DNA of 64,000 nucleotides from Naasia sp. SYSU D00057 (GTDB lineage Bacteria; Actinomycetota; Actinomycetes; Actinomycetales; Microbacteriaceae). Position numbers and translations under genes: made by a program. The notes under the pieces were generated by a model. It had not been told where the DNA came from. It worked only from the letters and a program-made list of their open reading frames with translations, and searched no databases. How positions within the stretch are numbered: the first letter of the stretch is position 1; each line of letters begins with the position of its first letter. Where the stretch lies: NCBI RefSeq assembly GCF_017916505.1, contig NZ_JAFMSZ010000003.1, positions 263,083 to 327,082 of the forward strand. The letters run 5' to 3'. This document shows positions 41,780 through 61,722 of the stretch, in pieces.

Positions 41780-41820
41780 TGAATCGATTCATTGTGCGGG
41801 CGGGGATCCGGTGCTGTCAA
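41780..41820 (-). promoter_or_regulatory. Rhamnose operon promoter with operator A
   Basis: On the minus strand TTGACA (41815-41820), an 18-bp spacer and CACAAT (41791-41796) form a promoter. The perfect palindrome TGAATCGATTCA (41780-41791, extending to AATGAATCGATTCATT at 41778-41793) overlaps its -10 box. Close relatives of this operator occur at 55006-55017 and 56330-56341. Confidence 0.75.
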
Positions 41821-41828
41821 CTCCGGAA

Positions 41829-42836
41829 TCAGCGGGCCGCGGAGGAGGCCCGGGCGATGAGCTCGGGCTGGAAGACGACCTCCTGGGGCGGACGCCCGGG
41901 GTCCTCCGCCTCCTCGAGCAGGATCTGCACGGCGGTCTCGCCGATCAGCCGGCTCGGCTGGCGGATGGAGGTCAGCGGCACCACGGCGGTGCTCGCGAAG
42001 TCGATGTCGTCGTAGCCGACGAGCGCGACATCCTCGGGCACGCGCAGCGACCGCTGCATGACGAGGGCCTGCAGCAGGCCGACCGCCACCAGGTCGTTGG
42101 CGGCGAAGATCGCGTCGGGTCGCTCGCCGGCCGGGCGCGCCGCCAGGTGCTCCCCGGCGCGGCGCCCCTCGAGGACGCTCAGTGACGAGACCTCCACGAC
42201 CTCGAGCGCGGCGCCGCCGGCCGCGGCCGCGAGGCGCGCCCCCTCGAGGCGGTCCGTGACCTGCCGGATGGTGAGCGGGCCGCCGACGTAGGCGATGCGA
42301 CGCCGTCCCGCCTGAACGAGGTGCTCGACGGCGAGACGGCCGCCCGCGATGTCGTCCACCGCGACGGAGCTGACCGACGCGTCCTCGCTCCTCCGGTCCA
42401 CGAGCACGGCGGGCGTGCCGCGGCTGCGGAGGCGGCGCAGGCGCTCCTCGACGTCGCCGTTCGGCGAGATCAGCACGCCGTGGATCCGCTGCTTCTCGAA
42501 CAGGTCGAGGTAGTCGTCCTCCCGCGCGTCGTTCTCGTCGCTGTTGCCGAGGACGACGGTGAAGCCGTGGCCCGCGGCCTCCTCCTGGGCGCCGCGGGCG
42601 ACCTCGGCGAAGAAGGGGTTGCTGACGTCGAGCACCACGAGCCCGATGGTGCTGCTCCGGCCCGCCCGCAGCTGTCGTGCCGCGTCGTTGCGCACGTAGC
42701 CGAGCTCGTCGATGGCCCGCTGCACGCGGTCGACGGCGTCGGGCGAGACCCGGTCGGGGCGGTTGAGGACGTTGGAGACGGTTCCGACGGAGACGCCGGC
42801 CCTCAGGGCGACGTCGCGCACGCTCGCAGTCGGCAC
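41829..42836 (-). CDS. LacI family regulator A (rhamnose operon)
   Basis: Predicted 335-residue LacI-type repressor. The DNA-binding region is VALRAGVSVGTVSNVLN with hinge helix nearby; a sugar-binding core follows (NPFFAEVARGAQEEA, GYDDIDFAS). The GTG start is set by AAGGAGGG 3 nt upstream. It ends 9 nt before the -35 box of the rha operon promoter, so it is the natural regulator of rhaI-rhaB and operator A. Likely inducer L-rhamnose, L-rhamnulose or a phosphorylated form, by analogy with other LacI-type regulators. Confidence 0.92.
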   Translation of the reverse strand: MPTASVRDVALRAGVSVGTVSNVLNRPDRVSPDAVDRVQRAIDELGYVRNDAARQLRAGRSSTIGLVVLDVSNPFFAEVARGAQEEAAGHGFTVVLGNSDENDAREDDYLDLFEKQRIHGVLISPNGDVEERLRRLRSRGTPAVLVDRRSEDASVSSVAVDDIAGGRLAVEHLVQAGRRRIAYVGGPLTIRQVTDRLEGARLAAAAGGAALEVVEVSSLSVLEGRRAGEHLAARPAGERPDAIFAANDLVAVGLLQALVMQRSLRVPEDVALVGYDDIDFASTAVVPLTSIRQPSRLIGETAVQILLEEAEDPGRPPQEVVFQPELIARASSAAR

Positions 42837-42880
42837 TCGCCCTCCTTCCCGGGATGCTCATGATGGCATGCGGCGACATA

Positions 42881-42910
42881 GTGACACGTGCAAGTGGTTT
42901 CTGGCACACT
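42881..42910 (+). promoter_or_regulatory. Promoter with operator B for the GH43-like gene
   Basis: TGACACGTGCAAGT (42882-42895) is identical to 45074-45087 upstream of the MalE-type gene. GTGACA (42881-42886), 18 bp and CACACT (42905-42910) could be the promoter. That -10 lies 6 nt before the ATG at 42917, so the transcript would be leaderless, consistent with the lack of a ribosome site. Confidence 0.5.
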
Positions 42911-42916
42911 GCCGCC

Positions 42917-43993
42917 ATGACACTTCAGCAGGGCGACGTCGCCCCTCCCGGTACCCGCACCTCCATCCGTCCCGGGAAGGTGTGGCTCGACACCGCCGGT
43001 AACCGGATCCAGGCCCACGGCGGCTCGGTGATCGCCGTCGACGGGGTCTTCTACTGGTACGGCGAGAACAAGGAGTTCACGACCCCGGGCAGCGGCGTCT
43101 GGCACTGGGGCGTGCGCTGCTACTCGTCCACCGACCTCTACAACTGGGAGGACCGCGGGCTCATCATCCCGCCGGACGAGGACGACGAGAGCTCGCCCCT
43201 GCACCCGAAGCAGTACCTGGACCGCCCGCACATCATCTACAACGAGCGGACCCGGCAGTTCGTGTGCTGGATCAAGGTGATGACGCCGGGCGAGATCAGC
43301 CAGCGCTCCACCGTGCTCGTCGCCGACTCGATCCTCGGGCCGTACCGCATCGTGCGCGAGTGGATCCGCCCGCTCGGCATGAACGCCGGCGACTTCGACC
43401 TCGTCGTCGACCCGAGCGACGGCAAGGGCTACTACGTCTTCGAACGCGTGCACTCCGAGCTCATCGTGGCCGACCTCACCGACGACTACACGGACGTGAC
43501 GGGCTACTACTCGACGCACTTCCCGCAGCCCCAGCCGCCGTACGTGCGTGAGGCGCCCGCCTACTTCCGCCGCGGGGACCTGCACTACCTGGTGACGTCG
43601 GGGACCACGGGGTACTACCCGAACCAGTCGGAGGTCGCCGTCTCGCGCATGTACCACGGCCCGTACAGCGTGCTCGGCGACCCGCACCCCACCGACACCG
43701 CCAGGACGTCGTTCCGGACGCAGATCTCCTCGGTCTTCAAGCACCCGGGGAAGAGCGACCTTTACATCGCGCTCGGTGACCGCTGGCTGCCGCGCTACAC
43801 CGCGGACGGACGTCAGGCGCGGGAGGCGTTCGAGGCCTACTTCGCTCCGGGCCACGACCTGCGCGTGCCGATGGAGGAGTTCGCCGAGGTGAACACCTCG
43901 ATCGCCGACTACGTCTGGCTGCCGATCCGCTTCGACGGCGACATGGCCGTCATCGACTGGCGCGACGAGTGGAGGGTCGAGGACTTCGACTGA
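42917..43993 (+). CDS. GH43-like beta-propeller glycosidase
   Basis: Predicted 358-residue enzyme of the GH43-like five-bladed propeller superfamily. Blade features include GGSVIAVDGVFYWYGENKE, DRPHIIYNERTRQFVCWIK and NAGDFDLVVDPSDGKGYYVFER; the acidic residues in them are plausible catalytic positions. No signal peptide. No ribosome site precedes the ATG at 42917, and a promoter -10 lies 6 nt upstream, so it may be leaderless. The divergent LacI regulator B lies downstream, converging. Which sugar it cleaves is unclear; similar proteins occur beside exo-acting galactosidases and xylosidases. Confidence 0.75.
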   Translation: MTLQQGDVAPPGTRTSIRPGKVWLDTAGNRIQAHGGSVIAVDGVFYWYGENKEFTTPGSGVWHWGVRCYSSTDLYNWEDRGLIIPPDEDDESSPLHPKQYLDRPHIIYNERTRQFVCWIKVMTPGEISQRSTVLVADSILGPYRIVREWIRPLGMNAGDFDLVVDPSDGKGYYVFERVHSELIVADLTDDYTDVTGYYSTHFPQPQPPYVREAPAYFRRGDLHYLVTSGTTGYYPNQSEVAVSRMYHGPYSVLGDPHPTDTARTSFRTQISSVFKHPGKSDLYIALGDRWLPRYTADGRQAREAFEAYFAPGHDLRVPMEEFAEVNTSIADYVWLPIRFDGDMAVIDWRDEWRVEDFD

Positions 43994-44000
43994 CCGACTG

Positions 44001-44028
44001 ACGCTCCCCGGCTCCTGCCGGGGAGCGT
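44001..44028. terminator. Strong bidirectional terminator
   Basis: A perfect 12-bp stem ACGCTCCCCGGC with loop TCCT lies between the converging GH43-like and LacI genes. Its last base is the first base of the LacI gene's stop codon. Confidence 0.85.
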
Positions 44029-44999
44029 CAGCTCGAGGCGCGCGCGACGGCGCGGGCTGAGGAGGGCAGGAGCACGTCCCTGCCCTCCTCGCCGCGCGCG
44101 ACCTGCGCCACGCTCTTGGCGAAGGCGGTGACGAACTCGGTGACGTCCGACTCGATCGTCGAGAGGGCGGGCACCGCCAGGTAGCCGAACGGGTGGTTGT
44201 CGACGCCGATGACGGCGATCCTGCCGGGGACGTCGATCCCGGCGTCGTGGGCGGCCGCGAGCACTGTGAACGCGACCTCGTCGTTGTAGGCGCACAGGCC
44301 GTCGACCTCGGGGTGCTCGGCGAGGAGGGCACGGAGCTGCGCCGTCGCCTCTCCCCGGTTCGCCGAGAGGGTGAGGCGGACGGGATGGGCGAGGCCGAGC
44401 CGCCGGGCCTCGGTGACGATCGCCTGCCAGCGGATCTCCGAGGTGGGCTCGAGGTCGGCTCGCGGGGGCGCGGCGTAGGCGAGAACGCGGCGGCCGCGCT
44501 CGAGGAGGTGGTCGACCTGGGTGACGGCCGCGCCGCCGAGGAACCCCGGGAGCCCGGGGAAGGCGGGGAGCACCGGCACGGAGAACTGCTGCGTGAGCTC
44601 GGCGAAGGCCGGCTCCCCCTCGCCGGCGGACGACAGGACGACGGCCGGCGCGAGATCCATCGCGGCGCTCCGGTCGTCCTCGGTGCCGAGCTGCCATACG
44701 AGGTGGAGCCCGTGCTCGCGCAGCGCCATGCCCAGCTGGGTGACGATGCCCGCGGCGACGAAGTCCGTCGCGCGCTGAAGGCCCGGCGTGAGCATGAGCA
44801 CGAGGGTGCTGCGGGCTCCGCGGAGCAGGCGGGCCGGGCCGTAGGGTCGGTAGCCGAGGCGCTCCGCCGCGGCGAGCACTCGCTGACGGGTCGCTTCGGG
44901 GATCGTCTGCCGTGGATCGTCGTTGAGCACGTAGCTGACGGTGGCGCGCGAGAGGCCCGCTTCGCGCGCCACATCGGTGCTCGTGACCCGGCCGCTCAT
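44028..44999 (-). CDS. LacI family regulator B
   Basis: Predicted 323-residue LacI-type repressor. TDVAREAGLSRATVSYVLN is the helix-turn-helix, followed by a shortened core with DGLCAYNDEVAFTVL and VIGVDNHPFGYLA. The ATG at 44999 is preferred over an upstream in-frame GTG because the N-terminus then matches the family's usual length. It diverges from the MalE-type importer operon at 45151. The 14-mer TGACACGTGCAAGT occurs just ahead of that operon and of the GH43-like gene, so B likely controls both. Confidence 0.9.
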   Translation of the reverse strand: MSGRVTSTDVAREAGLSRATVSYVLNDDPRQTIPEATRQRVLAAAERLGYRPYGPARLLRGARSTLVLMLTPGLQRATDFVAAGIVTQLGMALREHGLHLVWQLGTEDDRSAAMDLAPAVVLSSAGEGEPAFAELTQQFSVPVLPAFPGLPGFLGGAAVTQVDHLLERGRRVLAYAAPPRADLEPTSEIRWQAIVTEARRLGLAHPVRLTLSANRGEATAQLRALLAEHPEVDGLCAYNDEVAFTVLAAAHDAGIDVPGRIAVIGVDNHPFGYLAVPALSTIESDVTEFVTAFAKSVAQVARGEEGRDVLLPSSARAVARASS

Positions 45000-45072
45000 G
45001 CGATTCCGGTCTTCCTCGTCGGGGGCATGGCGATCACCGTAGTGCACCTCCGCAACTCGCCGCCCTCCGTCG

Positions 45073-45102
45073 TTGACACGTGCAAGTAGATCGCTCTACA
45101 GT
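45073..45102 (+). promoter_or_regulatory. Importer promoter carrying operators B and C
   Basis: TTGACA (45073-45078), an 18-bp spacer and TACAGT (45097-45102) form a near-consensus promoter. Operator B TGACACGTGCAAGT (45074-45087) covers the -35 side and operator C GTAGATCGCTCTAC (45086-45099) covers the -10 side; the two share two bases. Two different repressors could therefore block the same promoter. Confidence 0.75.
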
Positions 45103-45150
45103 TTCCCCGATCGGGACGATGGAGTTCCCGACGGACACCAGGAGGTCCTC

Positions 45151-46419
45151 ATGCGGCACACCTTCGCCGTCACTGCTGCCGGCGCCGCGCTCGCACTCAC
45201 TCTCGCCGGCTGCGCCGGTGGCGGCAGCTCGGCGTCGTCGTCGGACAGCGGCTCTCTCGAGATCTCGTTCCTCACGGGGTCGGGCGAGGGCACCGGCAGC
45301 AACTACACGATGCAGAAGCTCGTCGACGACTACGGCAACGGGGTGACGCTCGAGATGGAGCAGCTCGACGCCTCCATGGATCAGCGGATCCAGCTGCTCG
45401 CCTCCCAGGACCAGCTGCCCACCTTCTTCCAGATCGGCACGCCGTCGCAGATCGAGGACCTGTACGAGGCGGGGAAGATCGCCGACCTGGAGCCCGTGCT
45501 GGAGGAGCTCGGGGTGCTCGACAACCTGAGCCCCTTCTCGATCGAGGTGATCAAGGGCCTCTACGGCGGTCACCTCCTCGGGCTCCCGCTCGAGGTCGCG
45601 GTCGAGGGGTTCTGGTACAACAAGGCGATCTTCGAGGAGCAGGGCATCGAGGCGCCCCAGACCTGGGACGACCTCGAGGCCGCCGCCGCGAAGCTGCAGG
45701 AGGCCGGCGTCCAGCCGTTCGCGACCTCCGGCAAGGCGGGATGGCCGGTCACGCGGCTCGTCTCGGGCTACATCCAGCGCTCCGTCGGACCGGACGCGCT
45801 GAAGGCGGTCGCCGACGGGGACGCGAAGTTCACCGACGCCGAGTACGTGGAGGGCGCCGAGAAGATCGCCGACTTCGCGTCGAAGGGCTGGTTCGGCGAG
45901 GCGCCGGAGGCCCTCGACTACGGGCCGGCGCAGGACCTCTTCCTGCAGGGCACTGCCGCGATCTACTACACCGGCTCGTGGGCCGTCTCCGACTTCAACA
46001 ACGCCGAGCTGAACCAGATCGGGGCCGAGAACATCGGCTGGTTCCCGATCCCGGAGGTCGCGGGCGGCGAAGGCGGCATCGAGCAGACCCCGGCGAACGT
46101 CGGCCTCCCGATGGCGGTCAACGCGAAGACCCTCACCCCGGAGGTGAAGGACTTCCTCAAGTACCTCGTCGAGAACTACGGCACCGTCGCGATGGAGGAC
46201 CTCGACCTCATCACGGGCTTCACCACCGACGCCACCTCCGACTCGCCGCTCGTCGCCGAGACCGCCGAGCGGATCGCCGGCCTCGAGGAGTTCATCCCGT
46301 GGTTCGAGTCGCTGCAGTCGCCCGAGGGCACGGCCGCCTCGCAGAGCGGCGCGGCGTCGCTCGTGTCGGGCGGACTCACCGGCCAGCAGTTCATGGAGCA
46401 GGTGCAGGCCGCCCAGTAG
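45151..46419 (+). CDS. Sugar ABC importer substrate-binding lipoprotein (MalE type, system 1)
   Basis: Predicted 422-residue lipoprotein of the family-1 sugar-binding fold. The signal peptide ends in LAGC. Features include GLPLEVAVEGFWYNKAIFEEQGI, AAIYYTGSWAVSDF and the C-terminal LTGQQFMEQVQ. AGGAGG lies 6 nt before the ATG. First gene of a binding protein-permease-permease operon without ATPase. Ligand unknown; co-regulation with rhamnose-related genes through operator C suggests an oligosaccharide from the same polymer. Confidence 0.92.
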   Translation: MRHTFAVTAAGAALALTLAGCAGGGSSASSSDSGSLEISFLTGSGEGTGSNYTMQKLVDDYGNGVTLEMEQLDASMDQRIQLLASQDQLPTFFQIGTPSQIEDLYEAGKIADLEPVLEELGVLDNLSPFSIEVIKGLYGGHLLGLPLEVAVEGFWYNKAIFEEQGIEAPQTWDDLEAAAAKLQEAGVQPFATSGKAGWPVTRLVSGYIQRSVGPDALKAVADGDAKFTDAEYVEGAEKIADFASKGWFGEAPEALDYGPAQDLFLQGTAAIYYTGSWAVSDFNNAELNQIGAENIGWFPIPEVAGGEGGIEQTPANVGLPMAVNAKTLTPEVKDFLKYLVENYGTVAMEDLDLITGFTTDATSDSPLVAETAERIAGLEEFIPWFESLQSPEGTAASQSGAASLVSGGLTGQQFMEQVQAAQ

Positions 46420-46439
46420 CGTCGGACGTTCGCTGCACA

Positions 46440-46470
46440 GCGGGCCCGGGGCGATGCGTCCCGGGCCCGC
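46440..46470 (+). terminator. Intercistronic hairpin after MalE-type gene, system 1
   Basis: A perfect 11-bp stem GCGGGCCCGGG with a 9-nt loop lies between the binding-protein and permease genes. It likely raises binding-protein mRNA relative to permease mRNA. Confidence 0.65.
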
Positions 46471-46491
46471 GCGCATCACGAGGAGTTCCCC

Positions 46492-47373
46492 ATGGAGAGA
46501 GTGCTCGGCGACCGCCGCGCCATCCTGCTGTTCATCGCCCCGGCGCTGCTGCTCTACACGGTCGTCATGCTCGTGCCGATCGTGTGGTCGACGAGCTACA
46601 CCTTCCTCGACGGCAACCCGATCACCGGATTCGAGTGGGTCGGCCTCAACAACTACGCCACCGTCCTCGCCGATCCCGGCTTCTGGCAGGCGACCGGATT
46701 CAGCGTCCGCTACGCGATCATCGCGACCGTCCTGCAGGTGGCCGCGGGGCTCGGCCTCTCGCTGCTCTACGTCTTCGTGCTCAAGCGCTCGTCGGCACTC
46801 GTGCGCACGCTCGTGTTCTTCCCGATCGTGCTGCCGACGGCGGCGGTCGCCCAGCTGTTCGTCCAGCTCTTCGCGCTCGTGCCCCAGGAGGGCCCGGTGA
46901 ACTCGCTCACGGCGGCCCTCGGCCTCGGGACCATGAACTGGCTCGGGCAGCCGGACATCGCCTTCATCGTCCTGATCATCATGGACGTCTGGCGGTCGAT
47001 GGGCTTCTACGCCGTCCTCCTCTACGCGGGACTCGTCGCGATCCCGGACGACGTGCTTGAGGCGGCCCGGCTCGACGGCGCGCACCGCTGGAAGCTGGTG
47101 CGCTTCATCGTGCTGCCGTCGATCCTGCCGGTGCTGGTCTCCACCGTCATCTTCAGCATCAACGGGGCCATCAAGGTCTTCGACTCGGTCTTCGCGCTGA
47201 CCGGCGGCGGACCCAACGGCGCCACCACGCCGCTGACGCTGCTGATGTTCCGCACCTCGTTCGCCTTCGGGCAGTACGGGGAGGGGAGCACGATCGCGAT
47301 GACGCTCACCCTCCTCAGCCTCGTCGTGACGATCGCCATCTTCCGTGGGGCTCGAAAGGACATGACGGTATGA
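46492..47373 (+). CDS. Sugar ABC importer permease (MalF type, system 1)
   Basis: Predicted 293-residue six-helix permease. The coupling loop carries EAARLDGA followed by the conserved IVLPSILP. GAGGAG precedes the ATG at 46492. It overlaps the MalG-type gene by four bases (ATGA). Without an ATPase in the operon, it presumably pairs with a shared MsiK-type ATPase encoded elsewhere. Confidence 0.92.
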   Translation: MERVLGDRRAILLFIAPALLLYTVVMLVPIVWSTSYTFLDGNPITGFEWVGLNNYATVLADPGFWQATGFSVRYAIIATVLQVAAGLGLSLLYVFVLKRSSALVRTLVFFPIVLPTAAVAQLFVQLFALVPQEGPVNSLTAALGLGTMNWLGQPDIAFIVLIIMDVWRSMGFYAVLLYAGLVAIPDDVLEAARLDGAHRWKLVRFIVLPSILPVLVSTVIFSINGAIKVFDSVFALTGGGPNGATTPLTLLMFRTSFAFGQYGEGSTIAMTLTLLSLVVTIAIFRGARKDMTV

Positions 47374-48251
47374 CCGCGATGACAGCCGGCAGCGTTCCCG
47401 CGCGGCGCAGCGTCGCCGTCGCCCGGGTCACTGTGGGGCGGGTCCTCGGCATGCTCGGCATCGCTGTGCTGATCCTGGTCGAGGTGGTGCCGCTGGTCTG
47501 GCTCTTCCTGTCCTCGCTGAAAGCGCCCGCGGAGTTCAGTGGCAAGCCGATGTGGACTCTTCCCGACGGGATCCACTGGCAGAACTACGTGGATGCGTGG
47601 ACGCGGGGCAACATGGCGACCTACATCGTCAACAGCGCCCTCGCCACGTTCCCCGCGATCGCCATCCTGCTGATCACCGGCCTGATGGCGGGCTTCGCCC
47701 TCGAGGTGCTCAAATGGCGCGGACGCGGGGGAGTGCTGCTGCTGTTCCTCGGCGGCCTCATGGTGCCGCTGCAGATGATCCTGCTGCCCCTGTTCGCCAT
47801 GTACGTCGGTGCCGGACTGCTCAACAGCCCGCTCGCGCTCATCCTCACCTACGCCGCGACGGGCCTCCCGCTCACCGTGTTCATGATGGCCGGCTACTAC
47901 CGATCGCTCCCGCGCGAGGTCATCGAGGCGGCCGTGATCGACGGCGCGAGCATCTACCGCGTGTTCTTCAGCATCTCCCTTCCGATGCTCCGCAACGCGA
48001 TCATGACCATCGCGGTCGTGCAGTTCTTCTTCTTCTGGAACGACCTGCTGTTCGCGCTGACCTTCACGACGGACAACAGCTCACGCACCATCCAGGCCGG
48101 GCTGCTGAACTTCGTGAACACGTTCGGACAGACGGAGTGGGGTCCGACGTTCGCCTCCATCTGCATCTCGATCGTGCCGACGCTCGCCATCTACCTGCTG
48201 CTCAACCAGCGCGTCATGGGCGGCCTCACGGAGGGCGCCGTCAAGGGCTGA
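47370..48251 (+). CDS. Sugar ABC importer permease (MalG type, system 1)
   Basis: Predicted 293-residue six-helix permease with a roughly 25-residue cytoplasmic N-tail. The coupling loop is EAAVIDGA, and the family's end motif is present (RVMGGLTEGAVKG). It is coupled to the MalF-type gene by ATGA overlap. Last gene of the importer operon. Confidence 0.92.
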   Translation: MTAMTAGSVPARRSVAVARVTVGRVLGMLGIAVLILVEVVPLVWLFLSSLKAPAEFSGKPMWTLPDGIHWQNYVDAWTRGNMATYIVNSALATFPAIAILLITGLMAGFALEVLKWRGRGGVLLLFLGGLMVPLQMILLPLFAMYVGAGLLNSPLALILTYAATGLPLTVFMMAGYYRSLPREVIEAAVIDGASIYRVFFSISLPMLRNAIMTIAVVQFFFFWNDLLFALTFTTDNSSRTIQAGLLNFVNTFGQTEWGPTFASICISIVPTLAIYLLLNQRVMGGLTEGAVKG

Positions 48252-48354
48252 CGCCGCCGCGGGTCGTGCGGATGGCTCACGACGGTCCACGGGGTTGCAG
48301 CTGTCCGCGGGATCCGCGGTTGCTCCGGTGCCCGCGGGCGACTTGAGTGTTGCC

Positions 48355-49350
48355 ATGCAGACGACGCGGCTGGGCACGTCCGACCTCGAGGTGTCGCGCA
48401 TCGCGCTCGGCACCATGACCTTCGGGTGGGAGGCGAGCAGGGAGGAGTCCTTCGCGATCCTCGACGCGTATGCCGAGGCGGGCGGCAACTTCGTCGACAC
48501 CGCCGACGTCTACTCGGACGGCGCCAGCGAGGAGATCATCGGCGAGTGGCTCGCGGGCCGCTCGCGCGACGAGGTGATCCTCGCCACGAAGGGCCGGTTC
48601 CCGGTCGGCGGGAAGCCGGCGTCGCTGTCGAAGCGGTACCTCGACGGGGCGCTCGACGCGAGCCTCCGGCGCCTCGGCGTGGACCACGTCGACCTGTATC
48701 AGGCGCACGCCGCCGACGGGGAGCACCCGCTGTCGGAGTTCGCCGAGTTCCTCGAGGGGGCCCAGCGGTCAGGCAAGGTGCGGTACGGCGGCGTCTCCAA
48801 CTTCACGGCCGCCGCGCTCGTCGAGCTGGACCAGGCGACGCGCGAGCTCGGCATCCCGCCGGTCGTCTCGCTGCAGCCGCAGTACAGCCTGATCGTGCGG
48901 GACATCGAGCTCGAGGTCCTGCCGACCGCCCGCCTGCTCGGCATGGGCTCTGTCGCGTGGGGGCCGCTCGCCGCCGGATGGCTGACGGGCAAGTACGCGC
49001 GGGACGTCGCGCCGCCGGAGGGCAGCCGCCTCGGCGACGATCCGGAGCGCGGGGCCGAGGCCTGGAGCAAGCGCGGCACCGACCGGACCTGGTCGATCCT
49101 CGAGGTGCTCCAGCACGCCGCGGCGGAGTCGGGGCAGTCGCAGGCCGTGGTCGCCCTGGCCTGGCTGCTCGATCGTCCGGGCCTGACGAGCGCGATCGTG
49201 GGCGCGCGCACGGTGGACCAGCTCGCGCAGACCGTTGGCGCGAGCGACGCCGAGGTGGCGCCCGAGCTTCTCGCCGCCCTGACCGCCGTGAGCGAGCCGG
49301 ACCTCCCCTCCTACTACGCGATCATGCGGCAGGACCTGCAGCGGCACTGA
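48355..49350 (+). CDS. Aldo/keto reductase
   Basis: Predicted 331-residue NADPH-dependent aldo/keto reductase barrel. The catalytic tetrad elements are present: FVDTADVYSDG (Asp, Tyr), ILATKGRF (Lys) and LYQAHAADG (His). GARTVDQL near the end fits the cofactor-binding region. ATG at 48355 gives the normal N-terminus (MQTTRLGTSDLEVSRIALG); an earlier in-frame start is less likely. It could reduce sugar-derived aldehydes, but no operon ties it to the rhamnose genes. Confidence 0.9.
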   Translation: MQTTRLGTSDLEVSRIALGTMTFGWEASREESFAILDAYAEAGGNFVDTADVYSDGASEEIIGEWLAGRSRDEVILATKGRFPVGGKPASLSKRYLDGALDASLRRLGVDHVDLYQAHAADGEHPLSEFAEFLEGAQRSGKVRYGGVSNFTAAALVELDQATRELGIPPVVSLQPQYSLIVRDIELEVLPTARLLGMGSVAWGPLAAGWLTGKYARDVAPPEGSRLGDDPERGAEAWSKRGTDRTWSILEVLQHAAAESGQSQAVVALAWLLDRPGLTSAIVGARTVDQLAQTVGASDAEVAPELLAALTAVSEPDLPSYYAIMRQDLQRH

Positions 49351-49371
49351 CCCGGCCGCATCCGCGCTGAA

Positions 49372-49436
49372 CAGGACTTCCTGCCGTCAGCAGGACCAGA
49401 AGGCCCCGGATCTCCTGCTGACTGCAGGAAGTCCTG
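49372..49436. repeat. Long inverted repeat (24-bp arms) between converging genes
   Basis: Arms 49372-49395 and 49413-49436 pair with one mismatch around a 17-nt spacer, the same spacer length as at 23317-23373. It lies between the converging aldo/keto reductase and GH78 genes, where it may terminate both. Outer sequence CAGGACTTCCTGC. Confidence 0.8.
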
Positions 49437-49454
49437 CCGAACGCGGGCGGGCGG

Positions 49455-54964: not shown

Positions 54965-54997
54965 CGGTGTCCTTTCGTAGCGCCGTCGCTGCGGGTC

Positions 54998-55025
54998 AGA
55001 GTAGCTGGAACGATTCAAAGAGCAA
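54998..55025 (-). promoter_or_regulatory. Rhamnosidase promoter with operator A-like site
   Basis: On the minus strand TTGCTC (55020-55025), a 16-bp spacer and TACTCT (54998-55003) are promoter-like. TGGAACGATTCA (55006-55017) in the spacer matches the rha operon operator at 10 of 12 positions. Confidence 0.55.
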
Positions 55026-55060
55026 AAGCGGGGAAGTGACCGGCGGGTCCTGGCGGCAGG

Positions 55061-56116
55061 TCACCCCGCCGCTGCAGCCGCGGGACTCCCGGCGGTCACG
55101 GACTCGGCCGGTGCCCGCGTCGACCGCCTCGGTACGAGCGTGGGCGCGAAGACCTCGTGCACCGGCTCGGTCCGCCCGGCGATCCGGTCGAGCAGCAGCC
55201 GCACGGCGCGCTCGCCCATCTCTTCGCCCGACTGGTCGACGGTAGTGAGCGAGATGCCGGGCTGCGCGGCGATCCGGATGTCGTCGTAGCCGGCGACGGA
55301 CACGTCGAGGCCCGCCTCGTCGACGGCGCGCAGAGCGCCGATGGCGAGCTCGTCGTGCGCGGCGAAGATCGCGGTCGGGGTCGGCTCGCTGCGCAGCAGC
55401 TCCGCCGCCGCGGCCTCGGCGGCCTCCTCGCCCTCCCCGGTGCGCACCACCCGAACCTGGTTCTCGTGCCCGGCGGCGCGCATCCGCTCGAGGTACACCG
55501 CGAGGCGGATGGAGTGCGGCGTGCCCGAGCTCGGGACGGTGACGTCCTCGCTGCGCGTGAGGTGGGCGATGCGCCGGTGGCCGAGCCCGAGCAGGTGGTC
55601 GAGCACGAGCCGCGCGCCGGCGGCGTCGTCGCCGACCACGGTGTCGTAGCCCGTGGAGCGGTCGTGGCGGCCGAGCATCACGAGCGGCGTGCGCTCGGCG
55701 AGCCGTTCCAGCCATTCGGGGGAGACGAGCGGGGAGATCGCGACGATGCCGTCGACCTGCCGGTCGGCGAGGGCCTCGATGGCGCGGTAACCCTCCTGGG
55801 AGCCGCCCTCGGCCGGCGCGATGATCAGCTGGTAGGGCGTCCCCACGAGCGCGCGCGTCGCTCCGCCGAGCAGCCGGGTGAAGAAGTGGTTGCCGAAGTC
55901 GGGGATCTCGATGCCGAGCGTGAAGCTCGACCCGCGCATGGCGCGGGCGGCGACGCGGGGCCGATAGTGCAGGTGCTCGATGGCGGCGTCCACCCGCTCC
56001 TTCATCGCGGGGCTCACGCCGTAGGCGTTGCGCAGCACCTTGGACACCGCGGCGCGCGAGACGCCGGCGGTGCGCGCGACGTCCTCGATGGTGGGGTGCC
56101 GCTTCTGCTCCTGCAC
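55061..56116 (-). CDS. LacI family regulator C
   Basis: Predicted 351-residue LacI-type repressor. TIEDVARTAGVSRAAVSKVL is the helix-turn-helix; the core includes NHFFTRLLGGATRALV, IFAAHDELAIGAL and VAGYDDIRIA. The GTG start at 56116 follows GGAGG and gives the usual short leader before the HTH. It lies between the rhamnosidase pair and the second MalE-type importer. Operator C (GTAGATCGCTCTAC) lies 131 bp upstream and recurs at 45086 and 61709, so C probably regulates itself, both importers and the third GH78-like gene. Confidence 0.9.
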   Translation of the reverse strand: MQEQKRHPTIEDVARTAGVSRAAVSKVLRNAYGVSPAMKERVDAAIEHLHYRPRVAARAMRGSSFTLGIEIPDFGNHFFTRLLGGATRALVGTPYQLIIAPAEGGSQEGYRAIEALADRQVDGIVAISPLVSPEWLERLAERTPLVMLGRHDRSTGYDTVVGDDAAGARLVLDHLLGLGHRRIAHLTRSEDVTVPSSGTPHSIRLAVYLERMRAAGHENQVRVVRTGEGEEAAEAAAAELLRSEPTPTAIFAAHDELAIGALRAVDEAGLDVSVAGYDDIRIAAQPGISLTTVDQSGEEMGERAVRLLLDRIAGRTEPVHEVFAPTLVPRRSTRAPAESVTAGSPAAAAAG

Positions 56117-56247
56117 GCCGCCTCCGTCCCGCTGCTCGGACTCACATCTTCGCCGAAGAGACGCCCCAGGGGGCGTCGGCGATCCCCGCATGCCCCAACC
56201 CGGGGGCGCCCCCGTGCGCAACATCGCCGGAAATCTCCTGGTCAGGA

Positions 56248-56261
56248 GTAGATCGCTCTAC
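56248..56261. promoter_or_regulatory. Operator C between regulator C and importer 2
   Basis: GTAGATCGCTCTAC, an imperfect palindrome (GTAGA-N4-TCTAC). Together with flanking bases, a 16-mer here is identical to 45085-45100. Placed to affect the regulator gene on one side and the importer promoter on the other. Confidence 0.65.
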
Positions 56262-56290
56262 ACGTTACTGGATCGTTAGGCGGGAACCGT

Positions 56291-56341
56291 TTGACACGGC
56301 CCTAGCCTGACCGTACGTTGACTCGGAATTGAACCGATTCA
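56291..56341 (+). promoter_or_regulatory. Importer 2 promoter with operator A
   Basis: TTGACA (56291-56296), a 17-bp spacer and TACGTT (56314-56319) form the promoter. TGAACCGATTCA (56330-56341), 11 of 12 identical to the rha operon operator, lies just downstream of the start region, a roadblock position. Confidence 0.7.
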
Positions 56342-56392
56342 TCGGCTCAAGAGAGCACCAACAGCGAAGTTGTCTTTACATGGAGGTAAAGG

Positions 56393-57721
56393 ATGTTCTC
56401 CCGGCAATCACGGCGCACTCTGCTCGCGTTCAGCGCGAGCGGGATCGCGCTCACCCTCACTCTCGCGGGCTGCAGCGGCGGCGGAGGCGGAGGCGGTGCC
56501 AACGCTGACGGCTCCGTCACCCTCTCCTACCTGGTCGACAACCAGGAGGCCACGGTCGCCACGGCCGAGGCGCTCGCCGACGCGTTCATGGCGCAGAACG
56601 AGAACATCAAGGTCGAGGTCGAGACGCGTCCGCAGGGCGCCGAGGGCGACAACCTGATCAAGACCCGCCTGTCGACCGGGGAGATGAGCGACGTCTTCGC
56701 CTACAACTCCGGCTCCCTCTTCCAGGCCCTCGCCCCCGACAACACCCTCGTCAACCTCGACGACCAGGAGTGGGTGGGCAAGCTCGACGAGAACTTCGTC
56801 AACACCGTCTCCACCGACAACGGCGTCTACGGCGTCCCGATGGGACAGGCCATGGCGGGCGCCGTCATCTACAACAAGGACATCTACGCCGAGCTCGGCC
56901 TCACCGTCCCCACGACGTGGGACGAGTTCATCGCGAACAGCCAGGCCATCAAGGACGCCGGCGCTGCGGCGCCGATCGTGCAGACCTACGGCGACACGTG
57001 GACGTCGCAGCTGTTCGTGCTCGGCGACTTCAACAACGTCCTCGCCGAGGACCCCGACTGGGCCGAGAAGTACACGAACAACGAGGCGAAGTACTCCGAC
57101 GAGCCCGCGATCCGGGGCTTCGAGCACCTGGAGGAGACCTTCAAGGCCGGCCTGTTCAACGAGGACTTCGCGTCGGCCACCTACGCCGACGGCGTCCGCA
57201 TGGTCGCCACCGGCGAGGGTGCCCAGTACCCGATCCTGACCTTCGCGGCGTCGCAGCTGATGACCTCGAACCCGGAGGCGGCCGATACCGTCGGCGTGTT
57301 CCCGCTGCCGGGCGACGACGCGGCGACCAACGGGCTCACGGTGTGGATGCCGGGCGGCGTGTACATCCCGAAGTCCACCGAGGGCGACAAGCTGGAGGCG
57401 GCGAAGACCTTCCTCGAGTTCCTCGCCACCCCGGAGAGCTGCGACATCCAGGCCGAGACGAGCGCGCCGCAGGGCCCGTTCGTGATCGAGGGCTGCGACC
57501 TGCCCGAGGACGTGCCGGCCATCGTGTCCGACCAGCAGAAGTGGTTCGACGAGGAGAAGACGAACCTCGCGCTCGAGTTCCTCTCCCCGATCAAGGGACC
57601 GGCCCTCGAGCAGATCACGGTCGCGGTCGGCTCGGGCATCACCTCCGCCGCGGACGGTGCCGCCCAGTACGACGAGGACGTGAAGAAGCAGGCCCAGCAG
57701 CTCGGACTCGAGGGCTGGTAG
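56393..57721 (+). CDS. Sugar ABC importer substrate-binding lipoprotein (MalE type, system 2)
   Basis: Predicted 442-residue lipoprotein of the family-1 sugar-binding fold, with signal peptide ending in LAGC and a Gly-rich linker. Landmarks are VPMGQAMAGAVIYNKDIYAELGL and WMPGGVYIPKSTEGDK. GGAGGTAAAG precedes the ATG. Two cysteines late in the mature protein (CDIQAETSAPQ..., EGCDLPED) may form a disulfide. The operator-A site ties it to rhamnose control, so a rhamnose-containing oligosaccharide is the favoured ligand. Confidence 0.92.
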   Translation: MFSRQSRRTLLAFSASGIALTLTLAGCSGGGGGGGANADGSVTLSYLVDNQEATVATAEALADAFMAQNENIKVEVETRPQGAEGDNLIKTRLSTGEMSDVFAYNSGSLFQALAPDNTLVNLDDQEWVGKLDENFVNTVSTDNGVYGVPMGQAMAGAVIYNKDIYAELGLTVPTTWDEFIANSQAIKDAGAAAPIVQTYGDTWTSQLFVLGDFNNVLAEDPDWAEKYTNNEAKYSDEPAIRGFEHLEETFKAGLFNEDFASATYADGVRMVATGEGAQYPILTFAASQLMTSNPEAADTVGVFPLPGDDAATNGLTVWMPGGVYIPKSTEGDKLEAAKTFLEFLATPESCDIQAETSAPQGPFVIEGCDLPEDVPAIVSDQQKWFDEEKTNLALEFLSPIKGPALEQITVAVGSGITSAADGAAQYDEDVKKQAQQLGLEGW

Positions 57722-57748
57722 GAGGCGCAGCCTCCTCGCACGAAATCC

Positions 57749-57779
57749 ATGGGGCCGGTCGGACTCCGGCCGGCCCCAT
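57749..57779 (+). terminator. Intercistronic hairpin after MalE-type gene, system 2
   Basis: A perfect 10-bp stem ATGGGGCCGG with an 11-nt loop lies between the binding-protein and permease genes, as in the other two importers that start with the binding protein. Confidence 0.65.
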
Positions 57780-57806
57780 CCCCGTGAATCGATCGACGGA
57801 GATCCG

Positions 57807-58745
57807 ATGACCACACTGACGGCGCGCCCCGGCGCGGACACCGCCGGTCCCGACCAGGGGCGGGACGCGGCGGGGAAGAAGCGGAAGGGCATCAAGAGCC
57901 CGTACCCCCTGTGGTTCTACATGCCGGCCGGGGTCTTCTACGTGATCCTGTTCCTGGTGCCGACCGGCGCCTCCCTCTACTTCTCGCTCACCCGCTGGAC
58001 CCTGTTCGAGCAGGAGTTCATCGGACTCGACAACTTCGTCCAGTTCTTCCGCGAGCAGGCGCTCGTGCAGGGCTTCATCAACACCTTCATCTACGCCTTC
58101 CTCACCTCGGGACTGAAGGTCGTCCTGGGGATGCTGCTCGGCGTCTTCCTCACCTCGCAGATCATCGCCCGGGGGTTCCTCCGCAGCGTCGTCTTCTTCC
58201 CGGTGCTCGTCAGCACGATCGGCGTCGGCATCACCTTCGAGGTGTTGATGAATCCGTTCGACGGACTCATCAACCAGACCCTCGCCGCGATCGGCATCCA
58301 GGGGCCCGGCTGGCTCACCGACCCCCAGTGGGCGCTGCTCTCCGTCGCGCTCGTCGACGTGTGGAAGGGCGTCGGCCTCGCGACGCTGATCTTCATCGCC
58401 GGCATCGTCGCCATCCCGCAGGAGTACTTCGAGGCGGCGAGGGTGGACGGCGCGAGCTCCTGGAAGAACTTCTGGCACATCACGCTGCCGCTCGCTCGTC
58501 CCGCGACGGCGACGGTGGTCACCCTGTCGCTCATCGGCGGACTGCGGTCCTTCGACCTCATCTGGGCGATGACGGGTGGCGGCCCCGGCTTCACGAGCGA
58601 CGTCATCGCGTCGGTCATCTACAAGCAGTACCAGGCCGGCTTCTACGGCCTCTCGACTGCCGGCAACGTCGTGCTGTTCGTCGTCGTGGCCGCGCTCATC
58701 GTCCCGCTGCAGGCGTGGCTCAACCGGGGGGAGAAGGACGCATGA
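57807..58745 (+). CDS. Sugar ABC importer permease (MalF type, system 2)
   Basis: Predicted 312-residue six-helix permease with a charged 30-residue cytoplasmic N-tail (GKKRKGIKSPYP). The coupling loop is EAARVDGA, then ITLPLARPA. It overlaps the next permease gene by four bases. No ATPase gene is in this operon either. Confidence 0.92.
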   Translation: MTTLTARPGADTAGPDQGRDAAGKKRKGIKSPYPLWFYMPAGVFYVILFLVPTGASLYFSLTRWTLFEQEFIGLDNFVQFFREQALVQGFINTFIYAFLTSGLKVVLGMLLGVFLTSQIIARGFLRSVVFFPVLVSTIGVGITFEVLMNPFDGLINQTLAAIGIQGPGWLTDPQWALLSVALVDVWKGVGLATLIFIAGIVAIPQEYFEAARVDGASSWKNFWHITLPLARPATATVVTLSLIGGLRSFDLIWAMTGGGPGFTSDVIASVIYKQYQAGFYGLSTAGNVVLFVVVAALIVPLQAWLNRGEKDA

Positions 58746-59572
58746 GGAACACGCTCTGGCGCTGGGGAGGAGGCACCGTCGCGATCGTGCTCTCGATCGT
58801 GGTGTTCATCGTCCCGTTCGTCTTCATCTTCCTCACGGCGTCGAAGACGCAGCAGGAGGCGTCGCTGCTCGAGTTCACGCTGCCGACGCAGTGGGCGTTC
58901 TTCGAGAACCTCGTCGCGGTCGTTCAGACTCGGGACTACGTGCTGCTGCGCGCGTTCGTCAACAGCACGATCCTCACGGTCGCGGCGGTGGCGATCATGG
59001 TCGTCCTCAGCGCCATGGTCGGCTACGTCCTCCAGCGCCGGCGGTCCCGCTGGAACCCGCTCGTGAACGGTCTGGTGCTCGCGGGACTCATCATCCCGCC
59101 CGCGGTGGTGCCGACGATCTGGGTGCTGCAGGGGCTCGAGCTGTTCAAGACGCTGCCGGGGCTCATCGCGGTGCACGTCGCGTTCGGAGTGCCGTTCTGC
59201 GTCCTGCTCTTCCGGGCGTTCGTCTCCACGATCCCGAAGGAGCTCGACGAGGCGGCGATCATCGACGGGGCCGGCTCGGTGCGCCTGTTCTTCCGTGTCG
59301 TGTTCCCACTGCTCAAGTCGGTGATCGTCACGGTGATCGTCGTCCAGGCGGTGTTCGTCTTCAACGACTTCACCTATGCGCTCTACTTCCTGCCGGGGGA
59401 CGAGAACGCGACGGTGCAGTTGACGACGTACAACTTCCAGGCCCAGTCGGTGAGCTCGCTCAACCTCCTGTTCATGGACATCCTGCTGATCACGGTGCCG
59501 CCGCTGATCATGTACATCTTCTTCAACCGGCAGATCGTCGCCGGCATGACGGCCGGCTCCGTCAAGGGCTGA
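58742..59572 (+). CDS. Sugar ABC importer permease (MalG type, system 2)
   Basis: Predicted 276-residue six-helix permease. The coupling loop is EAAIIDGA, and the tail IVAGMTAGSVKG is the MalG-family ending. ATGA overlap with the MalF-type gene. A strong terminator follows 7 nt after the stop. Confidence 0.92.
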   Translation: MRNTLWRWGGGTVAIVLSIVVFIVPFVFIFLTASKTQQEASLLEFTLPTQWAFFENLVAVVQTRDYVLLRAFVNSTILTVAAVAIMVVLSAMVGYVLQRRRSRWNPLVNGLVLAGLIIPPAVVPTIWVLQGLELFKTLPGLIAVHVAFGVPFCVLLFRAFVSTIPKELDEAAIIDGAGSVRLFFRVVFPLLKSVIVTVIVVQAVFVFNDFTYALYFLPGDENATVQLTTYNFQAQSVSSLNLLFMDILLITVPPLIMYIFFNRQIVAGMTAGSVKG

Positions 59573-59579
59573 ACGACCG

Positions 59580-59613
59580 GAAGGGGGCCCGCGGAGAACC
59601 GCGGGCCCCCTTC
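59580..59613. terminator. Strong bidirectional terminator
   Basis: A perfect 15-bp stem GAAGGGGGCCCGCGG with loop AGAA separates the converging importer operon and the third GH78-like gene. Confidence 0.9.
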
Positions 59614-59629
59614 GCCGTTCCCGGGCGGC

Positions 59630-61699
59630 TCAGGCGGGAGCCAGGGTGACCCGCGCCGGGCCCGCGTGCCGCCGCTCCCCGTCGACGAGCGTGGTGCCCG
59701 CCGGGATCTCGACGGTCGTGCCGGAGGCGTCCGCCGTGACCACGATGTCGCCCGCCGGCGCGGGCACGATCGCGTCGGCCCAGGCGAGGGCCCCGAGGTG
59801 CGGCCGCACCTCGAACTCGGCCCAGCCGTCCGCGAGGGGCCGGATGCCGAGCACGAGCTCGGGGAGCAGCGCGGCGGGTCCTGAGCTCCACGCATGGCAG
59901 AGGCTCTTGCCGTAGGGGCGGCCGTACATCGCGTAGCGGCCGTCTCCCGGCTCGTCGAACTCCTCCCAGAACGTCGTGGCGCCCGCGTCGAGCATCGCGC
60001 CCCACAGGTCGCGGATGCGGTCGAGGGCCGTCCCGTGCTCGCCCGTCTGCGCGAGCGCGCGGAGGGTGAACGAGGTCATGAAGGGCGTGCCGGCCCGTTC
60101 CGCGGCGAGCAGGGAGCGGCGGACACCGGGAGCGTCGGGCGGCGTGAGGCCGCTGAGGACGGCGAGCATGTTCGCGTGCGGCGACGCCGTTCCGCCCCCC
60201 TCCAGGTACTCGCGCCAGGCGCCGGCCGCCGGGTCCCATGCCTCCTCGAGGAGGGTCTGCCGCACCCGGTCCGCCAGCGCCGCCCACCGGGCAGCATCGG
60301 CCGATCCGGTCTCGGCGAGGAGCTCGGCCGCGCTGCGGAGCGCCCAGTGCCACAGCACCTGCAGGGCAGTCGACGTGCGGGAGGGGTCGATCGTCACCCC
60401 CCAGTCGAGGAACACCGAGCCGGCCGACGCGTCGCCGAACCCGTCCGGCTCCTCGCGCGGTCGGAACAGGCCACGCTCGTCGGCGTAGCCGGCCAGGTGC
60501 CGCAGGAACCCGGCGAGGACGCCCGCCTCGCGGACGAGATGGTCGCGATCGCCGAAGCAGCGCCGATAGGAGGCGCTGTTGACGACCCACCAGAGCGAGT
60601 AGTCCGAGATCCCGTTGACGTAGCCGTGCCGCGGACGGCCCAGGGCGGTGAGTCCGTCGCGCACGATCGCGCCGTCGCCGAGAGCGTATGCGTTGGCGAG
60701 CGTGTTGAGGGCCTGGTCACCGGCCCAGGGCATCCGGTCGCGCTTGATGCCGTCGAGCACGAGCTCCTGCAGGCAGAGCCGGAGCGTGTACGCGCTCGTT
60801 CCCCAGATGCGGTTCAGCAGGTCGTCGGAGCAGACGAAGGCGCCGCGCCGGGGGGCCGGCCGCACGGAGGCCTCCACCGTGACGTCCGCAACCTCGGCGT
60901 CGAGGACCACGAGGTGACGGAAGGCGAGCCGGTGCACCGAGGTCCAGCGGCCGTCCGGCAGGCGCCGCAGCTCGTGCCGCGACTCGGCGTCCGGCGACGC
61001 GGCCAGGGCCTCGTCGCGGGACTCGCCGGTCGAGATGCGCGGACTCCCGGCGCAGGAGATCACCGGTCGGCCCAGCACGGGGGCCTCGAGGGAGAAGATC
61101 CCGTCAGCGTCGCGAGGGACCGGGAGCACGACGGTGGGCTCCCGGTCTTGGTGCGGTGCCCGACCGGCCGCGCCGATGCGCTCGAGGGCCGGACGCCAGA
61201 CGCCGCTTACGTCAAGCGCCTCCCAGGGCGCCCCGGGCAGCAGCGCGCCGTCGTCGGCGACCGCGACGGCGGCCGGCTCGCCTTCGGGCGCCCGGATGCC
61301 GAGGACGAGCATCCGGGCGCCGTCGGGCACGTCGAGGCGGCGGGCGCCGTCGTGGGACGGCGGCAGCGGGGCGGGATCCGCGTCGTCGAATGCCGCCGCG
61401 ATCGATCCGTCACCCGTCAGGAGGACCTGGCCGGGCCGGCCGGTGAGGCGCCGGCGGAGGGTCGTCCGTCCCTGCACGGACCCGTAGTTGGCGGCGTAGT
61501 GCACGAAGCGGTTGGCCGCGAAGCCCTCGCGGACGAGGCGCTCCAGCTTGGCGAGCTCGAACTCACCCGGCGCGTAGAGCCAGGACACACCGTCGCCTGG
61601 AGGGAGGGCGGGGGAGTCGGGGAGCAGGTCGGGTGAGAACTCGCGCGCGTGCTCCCGGATCTCGGCGGCACTCCGCCCGTTCGTGTACCGCTCCGTCAC
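59630..61699 (-). CDS. GH78-like alpha-L-rhamnosidase, compact form
   Basis: Predicted 689-residue enzyme with a reduced domain set: a beta-rich N-terminal part (about 1-280), an (alpha/alpha)6 barrel (about 285-600) with LDGIKRDRMPWAGDQ and ATTFWEEFDE, and a C-terminal sandwich. The barrel motif differs from CPQRDERLGWTGD of the other two copies, so it belongs to another branch and may not act on rhamnose. The start is GTG at 61699. A TACACT -10 box lies 6 nt upstream, so the mRNA may be leaderless. An operator-C-like site overlaps that box. No signal peptide. Confidence 0.85.
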   Translation of the reverse strand: MTERYTNGRSAAEIREHAREFSPDLLPDSPALPPGDGVSWLYAPGEFELAKLERLVREGFAANRFVHYAANYGSVQGRTTLRRRLTGRPGQVLLTGDGSIAAAFDDADPAPLPPSHDGARRLDVPDGARMLVLGIRAPEGEPAAVAVADDGALLPGAPWEALDVSGVWRPALERIGAAGRAPHQDREPTVVLPVPRDADGIFSLEAPVLGRPVISCAGSPRISTGESRDEALAASPDAESRHELRRLPDGRWTSVHRLAFRHLVVLDAEVADVTVEASVRPAPRRGAFVCSDDLLNRIWGTSAYTLRLCLQELVLDGIKRDRMPWAGDQALNTLANAYALGDGAIVRDGLTALGRPRHGYVNGISDYSLWWVVNSASYRRCFGDRDHLVREAGVLAGFLRHLAGYADERGLFRPREEPDGFGDASAGSVFLDWGVTIDPSRTSTALQVLWHWALRSAAELLAETGSADAARWAALADRVRQTLLEEAWDPAAGAWREYLEGGGTASPHANMLAVLSGLTPPDAPGVRRSLLAAERAGTPFMTSFTLRALAQTGEHGTALDRIRDLWGAMLDAGATTFWEEFDEPGDGRYAMYGRPYGKSLCHAWSSGPAALLPELVLGIRPLADGWAEFEVRPHLGALAWADAIVPAPAGDIVVTADASGTTVEIPAGTTLVDGERRHAGPARVTLAPA

Positions 61700-61705
61700 T
61701 CCGCC

Positions 61706-61722
61706 AGTGTAGATCGGTATAC
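61706..61722 (-). promoter_or_regulatory. Operator C-like site over the -10 box of the third GH78 gene
   Basis: GTAGATCGGTATAC (61709-61722) matches operator C at 12 of 14 positions. It overlaps TACACT (minus strand, 61706-61711). No good -35 box is visible. Confidence 0.5.

Follow-up and report, generated by a model that had tools for sequence, protein, structure and literature searches.

Three LacI-type regulators with distinct operators probably converge on two importers in a Naasia carbohydrate region

How is control divided when three LacI-type regulator genes lie within 20 kb of one another, among the sugar genes that they might govern? The question is raised by the window analysed here, a 64,000-nucleotide stretch (C15:263083-327082) that forms a single stretch of the 3.36 Mb genome of Naasia sp. 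SYSU D00057 (Microbacteriaceae) and that holds a rhamnose operon, three LacI genes (R1, R2 and R3), a glycoside hydrolase family 43 (GH43) gene, two ATP-binding cassette (ABC) importers, a pair of GH78 genes and a third GH78-like gene (Table 1). We favour, at a probability of about 0.7, the reading that the three repressors would each have their own palindromic operator (A, B and C), with importer 1 under B and C and importer 2 under A and C. In this arrangement, R1 and its paralog R1', both of the RhaR type, would bind A (TGAAnCGnTTCA) at the rha operon, the GH78 pair, importer 2, a rhamnose importer and an lldD-like gene; R2 would bind B (TGACACGTGCAAGT) at GH43 and between R2 and importer 1; and R3 would bind C (GTAGAnCGnTCTAC) at importer 1, between R3 and importer 2 and at the third GH78-like gene. 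Each importer operon is thus preceded by operators of two non-orthologous LacI regulators. The sites, their pairings and their conservation were computed, and from these we infer binding, the sign of regulation, exclusivity and the inducers.

A preliminary description of the window had proposed such a scheme, and all eight of its sites lie where it placed them: A at the rha operon, the GH78 pair and importer 2; B, as an exact 14-mer, at both the GH43-like gene and importer 1; and C at importer 1, between R3 and importer 2 and, with 9 bp to its start codon, at the third GH78-like gene. The three LacI genes that it had seen near three distinct operators each carry the N-terminal LacI helix-turn-helix domain (PF00356) and the periplasmic-binding-like domain (PF13377) above cut-off. 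A scan with matrices trained solely on sites that adjoin orthologous repressors of other genera (loci L030, L055, L067 and L104, which come from the same genus, being omitted as well) returns exactly these eight sites as the best hits in the window for A, B and C alike, with scores of 20.4-28.2. The best other scores in the window are 12.2 (A), 8.7 (B) and 14.8 (C), a B score of 13.6 being the 42882 site read shifted by one base, and across 62 kb surrounding 20 further LacI genes of the same genome they are 18.7 (A), 10.0 (B) and 12.7 (C). The stretch to the left of the window (L184) entered no analysis.

Exact matches are similarly confined. The B 14-mer occurs at only two places in the genome and only two in the sister genome, all within the cluster, and GTAGANCGNTCTAC, the C pattern, marks only the three claimed places in the whole genome when one mismatch is allowed (control pattern, 1). 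For A, the pattern TGAANCGNTTCA is met at five places genome-wide (control, 1), namely at rhaI, importer 2, an LldD-like dehydrogenase, a second RhaR-like LacI gene with a RhaS-type importer, and one coding gene. With up to two mismatches, A has four matches in the window against 0.48 expected from shuffles; the fourth, at 57785, was rejected as an A or C site, scoring 10.6 (A) and 14.8 (C), under every claimed site. A match at C14:603917 was likewise rejected as an operator because it lies inside a coding gene, and the sister genome's extra A match falls, by eye, in a gene of the same kind. One of the LacI loci elsewhere in this genome (L009-L028) has CGAATCGATTCG, an A-like palindrome with a score of 18.7; a further LacI protein of this genome may have an operator closely related to A.

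Several counts speak against so tidy a picture. In the window, neither B with up to three mismatches nor C with mismatches is more frequent than expected by chance. Genome-wide, B with up to two mismatches is met 6 times where the control pattern is met 4 times; the corresponding figures for the sister genome are 2 and 10. C with up to one mismatch is more frequent than its control in four of 10 relatives' genomes, equally frequent in three and less frequent in three. With B and C mismatch counts not exceeding chance or control in the window and in most genomes searched, the case rests on the exact matches and on their positions.

Position can be assessed across the family. Ortholog searches in 249 family genomes, with our own genome counted, gave a match for R1 in 135 (E value 1e-75; 30 loci fetched), for R2 in 4 (1e-50; a search within the genus gave two of nine genomes) and for R3 in 19 (1e-60; 21 loci, 20 of them from 18 other genomes). 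A separate set of 79 R2-like loci came from species genomes, the best 80 of 139 relatives having been kept, and does not include the four R2 loci just named. A repressor was credited with an operator if the site fell between 250 bp before and 60 bp after its start, the remainder of the loci giving the expectation; loci of the window itself were omitted, so that 29 of the 30 R1 loci, 20 of the 21 R3 loci and all 79 R2-like loci were counted. A lies near 17 of 29 R1 ortholog starts (24 hits against 0.68 expected), a B-like site near 12 of 79 R2-like starts (14 against 0.31) and a C-like site near 13 of 20 R3 ortholog starts (20 against 0.34). Neither B nor C was found near R1 at any of the 29 loci; near R2, A and C each appear at two of 79; and near R3, which importer 2 usually adjoins, B appears at one and A at eight of 20.

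A further association is with the recognition residues of R3. C accompanies 10 of 11 relatives with RA..K and none of the five with RS, HS, KG, QG or AS, which ties it to the DNA reading head of R3; three of the four relatives whose residues the pattern could not read have it as well. Against these associations stand the loci without the expected site: 12 of 29 for R1 and A, seven of 20 for R3 and C, and 67 of 79 for R2 and B-like sites. Among the last, 66 have an R2 relative of at most 42% identity and the remaining one is Subtercola, whose B lies at a GH30 gene; an R2 relative of 43% identity (G008) also has no B at up to two mismatches in the 19 kb examined. The pairing of A, B and C each with its own LacI gene, R1, R2 and R3, is nonetheless supported, and what had been an assignment by proximity now has ortholog association and the link between C and RA..K behind it, with the amendment that A is not private to R1, being probably shared with R1'.

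Absence of the sites upstream of orthologous genes had been named in advance as a finding that would speak against the proposal. Instead, A, B and C recur in relatives, and all eight sites are kept in the closest syntenic relative, the congeneric sister genome Naasia sp. SYSU D00948 (G068): three of A (rhaI, GH78 pair, importer 2), two of B (GH43, importer 1) and three of C (importer 1, R3/importer 2, third GH78-like gene). Between the two genomes the eight sites differ by four substitutions, at one of 94 specified and three of 12 free positions, whereas the aligned stretches around them are 48-82% identical. In a genome of another genus (G021), rhaI has A, and a GH78 gene and importer 2 each have both A and C; its third A site stands just before a reading frame that we take to be L-rhamnose mutarotase-like. 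One GH78 promoter of this genome bears A and C together, so that the claim that the enzymes, unlike the importers, answer to one sugar holds in the window and the sister genome but not there. A is upstream of rhaI in all three genomes, and R1 adjoins rhaI in the window and lies about 6 kb from it in the sister genome; no R1-type gene was found in the 37 kb of G021 that was examined, the best match being about 75 kb away. For A, B and C, the support exceeds what the letters alone could have shown the earlier reader.

Importer 1 offers the clean case of two inputs. There, B lies over the inferred -35 element and C over the spacer, reaching three bases into the -10 element, the centres of the two operators being 13 bp apart in both Naasia genomes. 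The 18-bp spacing between -35 and -10 recurs in the sister genome as well as in Propioniciclava soli and Microbacterium ureisolvens; the -10 equivalents of relatives read, by eye, TACCAT, TACGAT and TAGCAT. The exact B 14-mer is also present at importer 1 of P. soli and M. ureisolvens. These two have B and no C at importer 1; C at importer 1 was seen only in the two Naasia genomes, and B, having the wider distribution, is probably the older control. Occupancy of B and C is probably mutually exclusive; either repressor alone would block the promoter, and its opening would need both inducers, an AND of inducers. That importer 1 has a two-repressor AND gate, in which the unrelated operators B and C tile -35, spacer and -10 and are bound exclusively, and that this gate arose recently in Naasia from an ancestral B-only promoter by a few base changes, is a more tentative proposal, whose odds we put slightly below even.

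Could the region instead hold three abutting but separate regulons, importer 1 answering to R2 only and importer 2 to R1 only, with C a by-product of the promoter or R3's own site? The two relatives that have B without C would fit such an account, as would the origin of the importer 1 match, which comes partly free: AAGTAGAT, which follows B (also in Propioniciclava), furnishes its left half, and the -10 box contributes as well. These points, with the restriction of C at importer 1 to Naasia, weigh against a dual control of importer 1. However, in both Naasia genomes the importer 1 site matches C in full and is one of just three such sites, and the sole substitution between the two copies touches a free position and none of the specified ones, a point in favour of C there. 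An argument from Propioniciclava and Microbacterium, that they have R3 and yet no C at importer 1, is itself weakened, since neither R3 relative (55% identity with KG..K residues and 60% with RA..K, respectively) has a canonical C upstream in the stretch examined; both genomes may be without R3's C altogether, and what the outgroup argument thereby loses is made up for by the recognition-residue test.

At importer 2, separate regulons would draw on position. A lies just downstream of the expected start of transcription, while C is placed before the inferred promoter, in the gap separating divergent genes, where it may serve mainly R3's own promoter. The co-occurrence of A and C is also less firm than it first appears: A-like sites (score at least 17, a cut chosen after the scores were seen) accompany C upstream of R3 at seven of 20 loci, that of the sister genome among them, and only four of the seven, all above 19, exceed the 18.7 that an unrelated LacI locus of this genome reaches. 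On the other side, a copy of C, GTAGAnCGnTTGAC, embeds the importer 2 -35 sequence TTGAC at six of 13 loci from five other genera, where it would block the promoter directly, and R3 control of importer 2 is probably old; the window's own -35-embedded copy has decayed (score 10.6 against 21.6 for the intact C). Taken together, we regard separate regulons as unlikely, and return to dual control of both importers. Rhamnose control of importer 2 would be direct, through A at the transcription start, with R3 control through the upstream C a possibility. Of the earlier claim that both importers answer to two sugars, the two operators at each importer stand, with the reservation about C at importer 2, and uptake at both is probably dependent on two sugar signals. 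Between C and the importer 2 -35 (window 56263-56279) there is also a direct repeat, CGTTACTGGATCGTTAG, near-identical in both Naasia genomes and partly present in G021; it is possibly a site for a further regulator.

A further question is to whom A belongs. The second RhaR-like LacI, R1' (L183:8452-9606, contig C18 of the same genome), is 61% identical to R1 and adjoins a RhaS-type rhamnose ABC importer (TIGR02637, above cut-off) on another contig, with one A site and, 69 bp away, another with one mismatch. A also stands upstream of an LldD-like dehydrogenase elsewhere in the genome, whose lldD family score is under cut-off. A LacI regulator near rha genes, an operator at those genes and further A sites at the GH78 pair, importer 2, the RhaS-type importer and the LldD-like gene are the traits of a RhaR regulon, and A is probably a rhamnose (RhaR) operator common to R1 and R1'. 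It could be argued that in practice A belongs to R1', with R1 minor or redundant, given that R1' has the same VG..N recognition residues and A at its own locus, while the region upstream of R1 in this genome (window 41829-42895) carries B and not A, so placed that R1 itself may be under R2 control. In the sister genome, however, R1 has relocated beside an aldo/keto reductase and has there an extra A site upstream instead, and that genome gave just one R1-type match at E 1e-75. Sole use of A by R1' therefore seems to us about as improbable as separate regulons.

Less likely still is that R3 acts at some sites as an activator, for example from the C upstream of the importer 2 -35, in combination with repression by R1: for bifidobacterial AraQ, sites placed upstream have been interpreted as activating (Arzamasov et al., 2018; PMC5928203), and a conserved stretch, CGTTACTnGATCGTTAG, lies between C and that -35, but at importer 1 C lies across promoter elements, where a site usually represses, and elsewhere it stands just ahead of the third GH78-like gene's start codon or, in other genera, over the -35. 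Chance as the source of the repeats is ruled out by the exact genome-wide matches and the independent matrices.

Which sugars the three repressors would report can be judged from the genes that their operators adjoin. For R1, rhamnose is the likely input. For R3, the tie of C to importer 2 and to GH78-type enzymes makes a rhamnosyl-oligosaccharide likely. For R2, the GH43 protein matched eight PDB sequences, including the exo-beta-1,3-galactanases 7bys and relatives and 5flw; the best, 6eug, is filed as 'Beta-glucanase' and is, we assume, a GH43_24 exo-galactosidase. A GH30 gene with three F5/8 type C stretches in Subtercola sp. Z020 has the exact B 14-mer ahead of it (L102:10382-13440), about 3 kb from an R2 ortholog, and in Propioniciclava a B or B-like site precedes, by eye, a GH30-like frame. 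We could not accept the Subtercola GH30 as a beta-1,6-galactanase, its 21 PDB matches being mainly glucosylceramidases and GH30 xylanases with none named galactanase, and so the galactan reading rests on GH43. The GH43 matches and the presence of B at GH30 genes suggest that R2 probably reports arabinogalactan-type galactan, its input being a galactan- or arabinogalactan-derived sugar. Rhamnose caps the side chains of plant arabinogalactan, which would explain why importer 1 might answer to both R2 and R3.

Parts of this arrangement have precedents. Rodionova et al. (2013; PMC3870299) describe a LacI-type RhaR in Actinomycetales that controls rha catabolic genes through operators that are 20-bp palindromes, with several regulons including the rhamnosidases ramA and rhmA, the ABC importer rhiLFG and RhaFGHJ-type transport, and with lldD within the regulons of certain genomes. 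Compared by regulator type and targets with that account, operator A fits; the differences are that two RhaR-like paralogs probably share A here and that one or two further LacI regulators also have sites at the oligosaccharide importers and at the third GH78-like gene. Overlapping LacI regulons, with two regulators for one gene set, have been predicted for the arabino-oligosaccharide genes of Bifidobacteriaceae (Arzamasov et al., 2018; PMC5928203), although the regulators and sugars are others and here three regulators share two importers within 20 kb; B and C, moreover, physically overlap between -35 and -10, and the likeness to that study is one of co-regulated genes. In Bifidobacterium, MalR1, MalR2 and MalR3 are adjacent-branch regulators of a joint regulon with one common motif (Khoroshkin et al., 2016; PMC4746261), which resembles the probable sharing of A by R1 and R1' and differs from the three distinct motifs of R1, R2 and R3. 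In the literature searched, where the motifs themselves were not queried, the operator pairs of R2 (RA..Y) and R3 (RA..K) were not found, nor were reports of LacI with arabinogalactan in Bifidobacterium, of GH43_24 with GH30_5 or of Microbacteriaceae LacI with rhamnosidase. For combinatorial operators the literature found was from synthetic biology or on unrelated subjects, and none of the papers listed for Naasia concerned that genus. What appears to be new here is which operators belong to R2 and R3, together with a promoter tiled by two operators, a design of probably recent origin; the arrangement of known parts is new and well-supported.

The features are collected in Table 1. The rhamnose operon runs in the order rhaI, alpha/beta hydrolase, rhaEW, rhaB. 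Its alpha/beta hydrolase is also present in the sister genome (85%) and in G021 (46%) and is perhaps an esterase acting on acylated rhamnosides. No ATPase gene was noticed adjoining either ABC importer in this region of the window.

Table 1. Genes, operators and inferred promoter elements of the region (positions in the window).
Feature	Position	Strand	Basis and remarks
rhaB, rhamnulokinase-like	36203..37642	-	TIGR02627, E 4e-117, under curated cut-off
rhaEW, bifunctional rhamnulose-1-phosphate aldolase/dehydrogenase	37642..39678	-	TIGR02632, 1017.5 bits, above cut-off
Alpha/beta hydrolase inside rha operon	39675..40580	-	PF07859
rhaI, L-rhamnose isomerase	40583..41749	-	TIGR02635, 622.9 bits, above cut-off
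Operator A TGAATCGATTCA, 30 bp upstream of rhaI	41780..41791		pattern and matrix match; same letters in sister genome
R1, LacI-family, RhaR-like, recognition residues VG..N	41829..42836	-	PF00356, PF13377
Operator B TGACACGTGCAAGT between R1 and GH43, over inferred GH43 -35 (GTGACA)	42882..42895	+	exact; same letters in sister genome
GH43, exo-beta-1,3-galactanase-like, inferred leaderless start	42917..43993	+	PF04616; PDB matches 6eug, 3vsf, 7bys, 5flw
R2, LacI-family, recognition residues RA..Y; alternative inner ATG start 44999 possible	44028..45047	-	PF00356, PF13377
Inferred -35 TTGACA of importer 1, overlapping operator B	45073..45078	+	read from sequence
Operator B TGACACGTGCAAGT at importer 1/R2	45074..45087	+	exact; same letters in sister genome
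Operator C GTAGATCGCTCTAC at importer 1, between -35 and -10	45086..45099		exact; sister genome GTAGACCGCTCTAC
Inferred -10 TACAGT of importer 1, first three bases inside operator C	45097..45102	+	read from sequence
Importer 1 substrate-binding protein	45151..46419	+	PF01547 (scan from 45073)
Importer 1 permease a	46492..47373	+	PF00528
Importer 1 permease b	47370..48251	+	reading frame; syntenic matches 54-84%
Aldo/keto reductase	48295..49350	+	PF00248
GH78 alpha-L-rhamnosidase, pair member	49455..52262	-	PF17389, 405.7 bits
GH78 alpha-L-rhamnosidase, other pair member	52262..54964	-	PF17389, 350.5 bits
Operator A variant TGGAACGATTCA, upstream of GH78 pair	55006..55017		pattern and matrix match; same 12-mer in G068, G021
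R3, LacI-family, recognition residues RA..K	55061..56116	-	PF00356, PF13377 (scan as 55061-56125)
Operator C GTAGATCGCTCTAC between R3 and importer 2	56248..56261		exact; sister genome ATAGATCGCTCTAC
Inferred -35 TTGACA of importer 2, 17 bp before TACGTT	56289..56294	+	read from sequence
Operator A TGAACCGATTCA at importer 2, just downstream of inferred start site	56330..56341		pattern and matrix match; sister genome TGAACCGTTTCA
Importer 2 substrate-binding protein	56393..57721	+	PF01547
Importer 2 permease a	57807..58745	+	reading frame; syntenic matches 67-82%
Importer 2 permease b	58742..59572	+	reading frame; syntenic matches 65-83%
Third, divergent GH78-like enzyme	59630..61699	-	PF17389, 75.9 bits, above cut-off
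Operator C variant GTAGATCGGTATAC, just upstream of third GH78-like gene	61709..61722		sister genome GTAGATCGATATAC

In summary, operator-repressor pairs are supplied for two LacI groups, R2 with RA..Y and B, and R3 with RA..K and C, and uptake, rather than digestion, seems to be the step at which two sugar signals are integrated in this organism, a compact natural case. If the proposed gate at importer 1 is real, the birth of a combinatorial switch would be traceable base by base, with relatives preserving the B-only state, and the B-only promoters of those relatives make the evolution of the gate testable.

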